A stretch of 37,801 nt of DNA from an uncultured Ignatzschineria sp. (lineage in GTDB: Bacteria > Pseudomonadota > Gammaproteobacteria > Cardiobacteriales > Wohlfahrtiimonadaceae), in the NCBI GenBank assembly GCA_947632245.1, contig CANRON010000165.1, forward strand, positions 1 to 37,801, in the 5' to 3' direction. The position numbers were made by a program, and so were the translations under genes. The notes beneath the pieces are model-generated. The model made no database searches. It saw only the letters and a program-made list of their open reading frames with translations, and had not been told where the DNA came from. Positions 26,777-30,881 of this stretch are shown piece after piece. Numbering within the stretch: the first letter of the stretch is position 1; every line of letters begins with the position of its first letter.

Positions 26777-28288
26777 TTATAAGAAAAGCTTAAATGCCGG
26801 ATTATCATTTTCATCTTCAAATTGATATCCGAGCTCGTCAAGGAAAGATTGAAATGAGCCATCTTCCATATTCTCACGTGGAACCTGCATTGCAATGAGC
26901 ACTCGGCCATAGTCTGAACCATGATTTCGATAGTGAAAGAGGCTAATATTCCATCTGCCGGCAAGCATTGAGAGAAACTCTAAGAGCGCGCCGGGTCTCT
27001 CTGGGAACTCAAATCTAAATAAGCGCTCATTTTCAACATGGGCTTTACCACCGACCATATGGCGAATATGCAGTTTCGCCATCTCATCGTCACTAAGATC
27101 CACAACCTCTAGATTATTAGCTTGAAGGCGCTCGAGGATCTTTATCTTTTCATTATCGCCGGCAGAAAGTTGTAGGCCTACGAATATTACGGCTTCTTCG
27201 GCGTTAGAGTAACGGTAGTTAAATTCAGTAATACTTCTTTTACCAATAATATTGATGAAGTTTTGGAAACTACCCGGTGACTCAGGAATCTTCACTGCAA
27301 TGAGGGCCTCATTTTTTTCACCTAATTCTGCGCGTTCAGCGACATGACGTAGGCGATCGAAGTTAATGTTGGCGCCGCTCAAAATTCCGGCGACATTTTT
27401 AAATCCAGCGTTAGGATGCAATTGCAGATATTTTTTAATACCGGCAACACTGAGCGCGCCAGAAGGTTCGCTTAATGCACGGGTATTATTGAAAATATCT
27501 TTCATAGCCGCACATAATTCATCGGTGGAGACTGTAATAATCTCATCCACATGTGCTTGGCAAATTTTAAATGTCTCTTCGCCCACTAATTTTACCGCAG
27601 TACCATCTGCAAAAGATCCGACTTGATTCAGGGTAATGCGTTTACCCGCCTCTAAAGAGACCTTCATGGAAGCAGATTCTTCAGGCTCAACACCAATGAT
27701 TTTGCAGTTGGGCGCAATAAACTTCACATAAGCCGCAACCCCGGCGATAAGACCACCGCCGCCTACAGGAATAAAGATAGCATCAAGATCAGGCTTTTGA
27801 TCTAAAAGCTCTTTTCCAATCGTCCCTTGACCGGCAATGACAGCGATGTCATCAAAAGGATGGATGAATGTTTTGCCCTCTTCTTCAGATAAATATTTCG
27901 CATGCGTATACGCTTCATCAAAGTTATTACCATGAAGAATGACATTTGCCCCCATCTCCTTACAGGCATTGACTTTTAAATCAGGGGCGGAGATCGGCAT
28001 GACAATCGTCGTATTTAATTTGAGGTGTAATCCGCTTAACGCAACGCCCTGCGCATGATTGCCCGCGGAGGCGCAGATAACGCCTTTGGCTTTTTCAAGC
28101 TCTGATAATTGGAAAATTCGGTTAAAAGCACCCCTAATTTTAAAAGAGAAGATCGGCTGAAGATCTTCACGCTTGAGCCAAATATTACATTTTAATTGGC
28201 GGCTTAAGAGATAGAGATGGTCGAGCTGCGTGTTCTTTGCAACATCATAGACGCGGGCAGATAGAATATCCCGGATTAACGAATTCAT
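26777..28288 (-). CDS. ilvA: threonine ammonia-lyase, biosynthetic (two C-terminal regulatory ACT-like domains)
   Basis: SFKIRGAFNRI PLP-lysine motif, SAGNHAQGVAL, VGGGGLIAGVA, two ERPG/ESPGSF ACT-like repeats. Confidence 0.95.
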   Translation of the reverse strand: MNSLIRDILSARVYDVAKNTQLDHLYLLSRQLKCNIWLKREDLQPIFSFKIRGAFNRIFQLSELEKAKGVICASAGNHAQGVALSGLHLKLNTTIVMPISAPDLKVNACKEMGANVILHGNNFDEAYTHAKYLSEEEGKTFIHPFDDIAVIAGQGTIGKELLDQKPDLDAIFIPVGGGGLIAGVAAYVKFIAPNCKIIGVEPEESASMKVSLEAGKRITLNQVGSFADGTAVKLVGEETFKICQAHVDEIITVSTDELCAAMKDIFNNTRALSEPSGALSVAGIKKYLQLHPNAGFKNVAGILSGANINFDRLRHVAERAELGEKNEALIAVKIPESPGSFQNFINIIGKRSITEFNYRYSNAEEAVIFVGLQLSAGDNEKIKILERLQANNLEVVDLSDDEMAKLHIRHMVGGKAHVENERLFRFEFPERPGALLEFLSMLAGRWNISLFHYRNHGSDYGRVLIAMQVPRENMEDGSFQSFLDELGYQFEDENDNPAFKLFL

Positions 28289-28398: not shown

Positions 28399-29262
28399 CT
28401 ATTTTTCACCCAGTATTTTATTGATAAATATTTGAGATTCTTTAAATTGGGCGATGCACTGTTTAGCATCGTAGGCTTCGTTACTATCTTGGTCCAAAGT
28501 GAGTAGCGCGGGCAGTTTTAGCTGATTAGGATTCAGTAACGCTTTACATGTTGAAATCATTGCTTGGGAAGCTATGATCCCACTAATTGCCCTCTGTTCT
28601 TGAGCGTATTGATCTAAGATGGCTCCGACCCTATCCTGATTAATCGGTTGAAAATGAATTTTAGCATGGAGTTCAATCTCGACAGAAGTATAGAGTTTAG
28701 TAAGCGCGAGAAATAATATGTCGCGGGTACTTTGTGCTTCAATGAGGATAACGCGCGTAAAAAAAGGGCGAATGACATAGGGAATAAAGCCCCAATACTG
28801 AAATGGGGTTGTACGGATTTTAGTAGCTGATACAGGGAAAGCATTGCGAGGAGGATCGACGAGCTGTACAGAAATATTGAAGTGCTCTTCGTAAAATTGC
28901 TGATCTTGGGGCTCGCTACTAAATATGAGTGTGGGTTGAATGTTTTTTTCAGACAATGTTGCTTGTAATCGGTTGCTCCAAGCTTGCCAGCCATTAGGAT
29001 AACCGGGAATACCATCTTCATTAAATTCATGAATAATAATTCCAGGAATATCGCTTAAAATTGCTTTTGCCCAGTTCACGCGATCATCACTTGTCGGTTC
29101 CTTCGTGAAAGCACTCTCGCGGAAAAGTGCCCGATCCCGATCAGTCTCACTACAGACAAAAACATGAAGGCGGTCAACCTGCATTTTTGCAGAGAGTATC
29201 ATATTGATATGCCCCTGATGAAGCGGGTAGAATTTACCGACGATAAGACCAATTGTTTGCAT
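28399..29262 (-). CDS. NadR-like NMN adenylyltransferase with a degenerate C-terminal kinase region
   Basis: MQTIGLIVGKFYPLHQGHINMI...EDGIPGYPNGWQAWS...SSEPQDQQFYE...VSATKIRTTPFQYWGFIP..RPFF; ATG at 29262 preferred over 29304; Walker A absent downstream. Confidence 0.85.
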   Translation of the reverse strand: MQTIGLIVGKFYPLHQGHINMILSAKMQVDRLHVFVCSETDRDRALFRESAFTKEPTSDDRVNWAKAILSDIPGIIIHEFNEDGIPGYPNGWQAWSNRLQATLSEKNIQPTLIFSSEPQDQQFYEEHFNISVQLVDPPRNAFPVSATKIRTTPFQYWGFIPYVIRPFFTRVILIEAQSTRDILFLALTKLYTSVEIELHAKIHFQPINQDRVGAILDQYAQEQRAISGIIASQAMISTCKALLNPNQLKLPALLTLDQDSNEAYDAKQCIAQFKESQIFINKILGEK

Positions 29263-29396: not shown

Positions 29397-30881
29397 ATGA
29401 TTAATTCAATACTTACCGGTAGTTTTTTATGGGGTGGAAGCTTAATTGCGCTAATCCTCTATGTTATCTTTATCTTGACCATTTGTGTGAAAATTATTTA
29501 TAACACGACAAGTGTCAGTAAGACATTGGGCTATTTAGTGCTGATTGTCTTTTTACCACTTTTTGGTGTTGTTCTGTATCTCTCATTAGGTGTCAATTAT
29601 CGTAACAAGGCAATGTATGATAAAAAGCTGGAATATAATGGGGATTTAAAAGAGGAGATCTATGAATATACTAAACACATTGAGCAGAATCCGCATGCGA
29701 TTGATAATCCTGTCATTGAGCAGTTCAAGCGTCTAGCTCACTCTGTATCGACAGAGGACGTGCATTGGATGAGTTTGAATAATGACGTGATGCTTTTAAA
29801 AAATGGTGAGAATAAATACCCCGAAGTATTGAAGGAGATTGCCGCTGCAAAAGAGACGATCCATATTGAGTATTACATTGTACGTAATGATGTGATTGGC
29901 AATAAACTGAAAGATCTTCTTATTCAAAAAGCGAAAGAAGGCGTTAAGGTTCGCTTTATTTACGATGATTTTGGGAGTAAAAAGATTCGAAAAGAGTATG
30001 CAGAAGAGATGCGTGCCGCGGGTATTGAAGTATTTGCGTTTAGAAAGCTATTATTTATATTTTGGGCGAATCGGGTCAACTACCGAAATCATCGTAAAAT
30101 CATCGTGATTGATGGGCGCGTAGGATTTATTGGCGGTATTAATTTTGGGGATGACTATATCAATGTTCCCGGGAGCGGAAAGCCTATTTTAAGAGATATG
30201 CATGTGCGTCTTGAAGGATATAGTTGTTATGCATTACAGCACATATTTCTGTCCGATTGGAATTTTTGCGCAAATCAAAAGATAGAGCCAAATAGTGAGC
30301 TATTTCCGTTAGATCTGCGTGATGATCCCGGGACTAAAGCCGTTCAAATCGTTGCCAGTGGCCCTGATTCAGAAGAGCCATTTATTATGAACTCGATTAT
30401 TCAAGCGATTGCACTGGCTGAAAAAGAGATTTTAATTACTACCCCTTACTTTGTACCGACAGAGCAGATTTTAACAATGCTGAAGATTGCAGCGAGAAGT
30501 CAGGTAAAGGTAAAGTTATTAGTACCAGAAAGAACCAACTCACTTTTGGTCCGCATGGCGAGCCGCGCACTCTATCTAGATTTGCTGAAAGCAGGGGTTG
30601 AGATCTATCATTATCAAAAAGGTTTGATACACGCTAAAACGAGCGTTTATGACCGAGGGCTTTCGATGATCGGGACAGCAAATATGGATATTCGTAGTTT
30701 TGATCTTAACTTTGAGGCTAATGCGATTGTATATGACCGCGAGTTTGCCGAGTTAATGACCGCGCAATATTATGAAGACTTAGAAAGTGCGATCCAAATT
30801 ACGCTCGAAGAGTGGGAAAAGCGACCGAAATATAAGATATTTGCAGACAAATTTGTATATCTCATCTCATCGTTACTCTAG
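29397..30881 (+). CDS. cls: cardiolipin synthase (PLD family)
   Basis: Two HKD motifs: HRKIIVIDG...GGIN and HAKTSVYDRGLSMIGTANMDIRS; two N-terminal TM helices. Confidence 0.93.
   Translation: MINSILTGSFLWGGSLIALILYVIFILTICVKIIYNTTSVSKTLGYLVLIVFLPLFGVVLYLSLGVNYRNKAMYDKKLEYNGDLKEEIYEYTKHIEQNPHAIDNPVIEQFKRLAHSVSTEDVHWMSLNNDVMLLKNGENKYPEVLKEIAAAKETIHIEYYIVRNDVIGNKLKDLLIQKAKEGVKVRFIYDDFGSKKIRKEYAEEMRAAGIEVFAFRKLLFIFWANRVNYRNHRKIIVIDGRVGFIGGINFGDDYINVPGSGKPILRDMHVRLEGYSCYALQHIFLSDWNFCANQKIEPNSELFPLDLRDDPGTKAVQIVASGPDSEEPFIMNSIIQAIALAEKEILITTPYFVPTEQILTMLKIAARSQVKVKLLVPERTNSLLVRMASRALYLDLLKAGVEIYHYQKGLIHAKTSVYDRGLSMIGTANMDIRSFDLNFEANAIVYDREFAELMTAQYYEDLESAIQITLEEWEKRPKYKIFADKFVYLISSLL

Follow-up and report, generated by a model that had tools for sequence, protein, structure and literature searches.

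The NadR of Escherichia coli has the architecture HTH-NMNAT-RNK, in which NMNAT denotes the NMN adenylyltransferase domain and RNK the ribosylnicotinamide kinase domain, and the tetramer reported for Haemophilus influenzae NadR includes both of these enzymatic domains (PMC7221760). For Francisella, the passage of PMC3376133 that cites Sorci et al. 2009 describes an NMN synthetase, NadE*, which works with NadM instead of NadD. Our literature search on Ignatzschineria and Wohlfahrtiimonas found nothing on NAD biosynthesis. Here we analysed a stretch of 37,801 nucleotides (the window) from an uncultured Ignatzschineria sp. (assembly GCA_947632245.1, contig CANRON010000165.1), which encodes a NadR homologue of 287 aa. 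We consider it probable that this protein is a monofunctional NMNAT derived from an HTH-less NadR, that it keeps a dead but maintained kinase stub, and that it serves as the sole adenylyltransferase of an NMN-first NAD route.

The reading frame runs on the minus strand from an ATG at 29262 to a stop codon at 28399-28401 and contains 287 codons; the preliminary description had named no strand. The ATG is preceded at a short distance by AAGAAGA (Table 1). Residues 1-174 match the NF005988 NadR profile at 1.2e-57 and residues 3-184 match TIGR01526 at 1.4e-54; among solved structures the best match is that of H. influenzae NadR (1lw7, 1.1e-59), with SATKIRTTPFQYW.FIP..RPFF in register. The motifs GKFYPLHQGH (9-18), YPNGW (88-92) and SATKIR (145-150) are intact. 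The protein stayed below the whole-protein cut-offs of both models (195.9 versus 201 for NF005988, 185.5 versus 341 for TIGR01526), as would be expected if half of the protein is missing. The NMNAT domain begins at the protein start and no N-terminal HTH precedes it, so that the preliminary description, which had recognised the N-terminal half as a NadR-type NMNAT without an HTH, was borne out on both points. The NMNAT half shares 55% identity with G282, a canonical NadR of the NMNAT-RNK type, and 46% with E. coli NadR, and its dN/dS was 0.05-0.12 in the informative pairs. NadM and the archaeal single-domain NMNATs share the reaction class and the superfamily with our protein but belong to a different lineage; similarity to the NadM model TIGR01527 was weak (18.8 bits versus a cut-off of 181.2, E 9e-4).

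Table 1 Features at the locus, in window coordinates
Feature	Position	Strand	Basis or remark
Whole CDS, NadR-type NMN adenylyltransferase with eroded kinase half, 287 aa	28399..29262	-	
NMNAT domain, residues 1-168	28759..29262	-	Profile, structure-relative and motif matches
Putative relic of RNK first strand, P-loop and first helix, residues 168-199, FTRVILIEAQSTRDILFLALTKLYTSVEIELH	28666..28761	-	Alignment and profile scores
Rest of tail, residues 200-287	28402..28665	-	No RNK homology detected; purifying selection within genus
Neighbour, ilvA-like threonine dehydratase	26777..28288	-	Product named from sequence; syntenic in one sister genus
Neighbour, cardiolipin-synthase-like gene	29397..30881	+	Product named from sequence; syntenic in two sister genera

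What the protein shares with H. influenzae NadR is the NMNAT half (GKFYPxHxGH, YPNGW, SATKIR) and also the linker into the first RNK strand, whereas it lacks the P-loop, Walker B and lid of the kinase, and its tail has 119 aa against ~180. Compared with E. coli NadR, both the HTH and the kinase are lacking. Within its own family, the tail that follows IRPFF is likewise 119 aa long versus 180 in true NadR. The P-loop position, where NadR has ILGGESSGKS, is occupied by ILIEAQSTRD; the relic loop is two residues shorter than the canonical P-loop and the Walker A residues are lost. No member has the Gly, Lys and Ser of Walker A, and the tail lacks ~60 RNK residues, the lid region among them. The shortening and the loss of the P-loop had both been read correctly from the window. 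Neither an intact P-loop nor a different conserved nucleotide-binding motif, the two findings that the preliminary description had set against its own reading, was found in the C-terminus.

We compared the first 31 tail residues with a profile of 18 RNK domains, including diverse ones from outside the family, and obtained a score of 23.2, whereas 60 column shuffles gave 10.2 +/- 2.0 with a maximum of 16.5. The alignment begins with residue 1 of the tail opposite residue 1 of the RNK domain. The score was 21.7 without the sister genus (shuffle maximum 14.6) and 20.2 when the profile held only RNKs of other families (15.0); leaving out the first residue, a shared F, cut it to 16.8. A profile comparison with the family's own seven RNKs only was not significant (E 0.12-0.4). 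The signal of kinase ancestry in the first ~31 tail residues is therefore real but modest. Beyond ~35 residues the tail scored no better than shuffles against RNK, and the proposed alignment of the Walker B-like FIDTDF with GIIASQA lacks statistical support. Pfam detected no domain in the tail. An AlphaFold model from three sequences had a mean pLDDT of 57, with ~30-60 in the tail, which was drawn as low-confidence alternating strands and helices; Foldseek with this model ranked full NadRs first, but with an rmsd of 17.6 and a TM of 0.49, and it was not used as evidence. The reading of the protein as an NMNAT without an NR-kinase half thus agrees with the absence of the P-loop and with the restriction of recognisable RNK sequence to those first ~31 residues.

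The same data bear on the idea that the tail is not a kinase relic at all and is unrelated sequence gained after the NMNAT domain. The 172-aa form of a sister genus (described below) would allow such a gain, RNK homology is not detected past residue ~200, and the lack of a Pfam match and the non-significant test against the seven close RNKs point the same way. However, the deeper RNK profile aligns the first 31 residues in register and well above the shuffle maximum, the score holds without the sister genus, and the order of strand, P-loop position and helix is kept. We regard a gained tail as unlikely, though deserving some weight, and prefer an eroded kinase half.

The kinase-less NadR form was found in 17 of the 18 family genomes. 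All nine Ignatzschineria genomes, which include Candidatus Ignatzschineria merdigallinarum and I. ureiclastica and most of which are 98-99% complete, carry the protein at ~287-310 aa. In a sister genus (two genomes, G011 and G013), the protein has 287 aa and carries IALYGETAES where the P-loop would lie, a sequence resembling a half-decayed P-loop of the IAILGGESSGKS type. In six genomes of another genus, probably Wohlfahrtiimonas, the protein has 172 aa and stops precisely where the NMNAT domain ends. The gene order is ilvA - NMNAT - cls in the genus with the 172-aa form and NMNAT - cls in the other sister genus, and this common order marks the proteins as orthologues that differ in how far the tail has been lost. 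The kinase-less form is lineage-wide and no local accident, and one family shows a bifunctional enzyme at several stages of domain loss (relic, eroded stub and clean loss), for which the gene content offers a metabolic reason. A decaying pseudogene or an assembly artefact might be suspected from the shortened domain, the lost motifs and the draft state of the assembly; this is refuted by conservation and selection, since nine species of the genus share this form, their genomes being mostly 98-99% complete, the NMNAT half has the dN/dS given above, and there is no NadD as a replacement.

The tail identity was 26-29% between the genome of the window (G000) and two other species of the same genus. 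In the least saturated species pair (G006/G001), the tail pN/pS was 0.15 (95% CI 0.08-0.26); values of 0.36 (G004/G005) and 0.48 (G008/G003) came from pairs in which synonymous sites were near-saturated. The reading frame is unbroken in all 11 tail-bearing genomes of the two genera. The tail evolves faster than the NMNAT half, yet it is maintained as a protein, and purifying selection at a pN/pS of 0.15 suggests that it still does something. The tail might conceivably still act as an NR kinase that binds nucleotides through a non-canonical motif; the selection on the tail would be compatible with this, as would the two genes for PnuC-family transporters in a genome that lacks any further RNK domain. 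This is very improbable, because every member has lost the Gly, Lys and Ser of Walker A with no alternative motif conserved, the tail is so divergent among congeners, and ~60 residues including the lid are gone.

Another possible function is that of a repurposed module for regulation, oligomerisation or partner binding, which would make the protein a sensor as well as an enzyme; a structural or sensor role of the remnant had been raised in the preliminary description. The low pN/pS in the least saturated pair and the 11 unbroken frames are in its favour, as is the participation of both domains in the H. influenzae tetramer, whereas the absence of an HTH and of any known ligand-binding domain, the rapid divergence, and the complete loss of the tail in a sister genus with an otherwise intact NMNAT are difficult to reconcile with it. 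We consider such a module unlikely and favour a maintained, catalytically dead stub. The gene of one congener (G002, L009, positions about +450 to +1150) is a mosaic: it is 93-100% identical to G005 until the NMNAT/tail boundary, 95-100% identical to G004 past the boundary through the tail into the next gene, and then G005-like again. A recombination tract has exchanged the tail between species in this case.

NadD (TIGR00482) was not detected above the cut-off in any of the 18 family genomes, and the weak NadD matches that we inspected in the family were CoaD. Among 32 genomes of the order, NadD was found in one (G020), and this genome contains no close relative of the NadE seen in the family. 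In the genome of the window, the nucleotidyltransferase superfamily comprised HldE-, RibF- and glycerol-3-phosphate-cytidylyltransferase-like proteins, names that rest on length, sequence and context, together with the 287-aa NMNAT; no NadM was found there. The assembly is 93% complete, and caution about absences is needed because no CoaD was found in it though all relatives have one; the absences in this genome rest on searches across the family, whose relatives are 98-99% complete.

The NadE of this genome has 3fiu as its best match (218.8 bits, next 156.8), a structure deposited as NAD synthetase which we take to be the Francisella enzyme that the literature describes as an NMN synthetase, and we infer its specificity as an NMN synthetase from this best match. 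The nadE gene adjoins a nicotinate phosphoribosyltransferase gene (NF005529, 567 bits, cut-off 378) in a two-gene unit, and nadC is present with nadA next to it. The preliminary description had also suggested the loss of NR salvage and proposed a search for another NR kinase or PnuC. No other RNK domain was found in the assembly, so salvage through NadR appears lost, while the PnuC part of the search gave two PnuC-family genes (G000:C144:2698-3264, L054, and G000:C22:4893-5459, L067). Neither of them is near a kinase gene in the stretch examined. The only above-cut-off PF13521 match in the genome was considered as a separate NR kinase and proved to be thymidylate-kinase-like.

The explanation that we favour builds on observed domain content, P-loop loss, distribution, NadD absence, gene inventory and selection on the tail, whereas the activities of the enzymes, the sequence of steps in the pathway and the role of the tail are the parts that we infer. 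Counting against it are the two PnuC-family genes in a genome where no RNK is recognisable. The protein would descend from a Pasteurellaceae-type NadR without an HTH, the RNK half of which decayed to the maintained, catalytically dead stub. NaMN would come from de novo synthesis (NadA, NadC) or from nicotinate through nicotinate phosphoribosyltransferase, and would be amidated first by the putative NadE*-type NMN synthetase; the 287-aa protein, the only NMN/NaMN adenylyltransferase found in the genome, would then make NAD (NMN + ATP -> NAD + PPi). The cell would make NMN itself, and relatives that still salvage NR would take the kinase from a second NadR, so that the kinase half would have become dispensable. 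As the family has no NadD and its NadE is most like the Francisella NMN synthetase, the 287-aa protein is probably essential, being the only NMNAT and not a salvage leftover.

This route would resemble that of Francisella in having no NadD, in having a NadE closest to 3fiu and in placing amidation before adenylylation, but the NMNAT is a kinase-less NadR and not NadM. The family would be a candidate addition to the few bacteria thought to amidate before adenylylating in NAD synthesis, with a NadR-derived enzyme in the role of the Francisella NadM. The Ignatzschineria lineage consists of fly-associated opportunists, and in them the protein should be essential if it is the only NMNAT. If the protein were annotated automatically as a tri- or bifunctional NadR, NR salvage and NAD-dependent repression would be predicted in error.

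The second, full-length NadR, with an HTH and an intact P-loop, was found in two relatives (G001 and G006) and in the six genomes of the genus with the 172-aa form, in several cases beside PnuC. In its NMNAT half, GKF is changed to GAF, YPNGW is absent and SATKIR is replaced by HGEDIRR/CSEDIRR-type sequences, and these altered motifs make it probable that the protein acts only as kinase and repressor. G001 and G006 have no nadC match above the cut-off, yet keep the full-length NadR and PnuC, and they may depend on salvaged precursors.

In the NMNAT-domain tree, with weak bootstrap support, the second NadR groups with E. coli NadR, which does not group with the 287-aa protein, and the kinase-less type groups with the H. 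influenzae-like G282. The corresponding identities are 57% and 55%, with 34-37% between the two types. A plain origin by duplication and subsequent split was set aside, as each type groups with a different NadR from outside the family, albeit with low branch support; these separate groupings suggest that the halves were probably lost in two separate lineages and not after one duplication. It is a tentative idea, and one that we would not bet on, that two NadR lineages were reduced in opposite directions, one losing the kinase and the other the adenylyltransferase, with the stub kept for a new, non-catalytic function, for instance in assembly or in the binding of a partner. If true, a textbook bifunctional enzyme would be split across two genes. 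In another family of the same order, NadR-like proteins (loci L019, L020 and L021) have an intact P-loop and a degenerate NMNAT half (GHFEPLHQGH, SATKIR absent), and are thus the mirror image of the kinase-less 287-aa protein.
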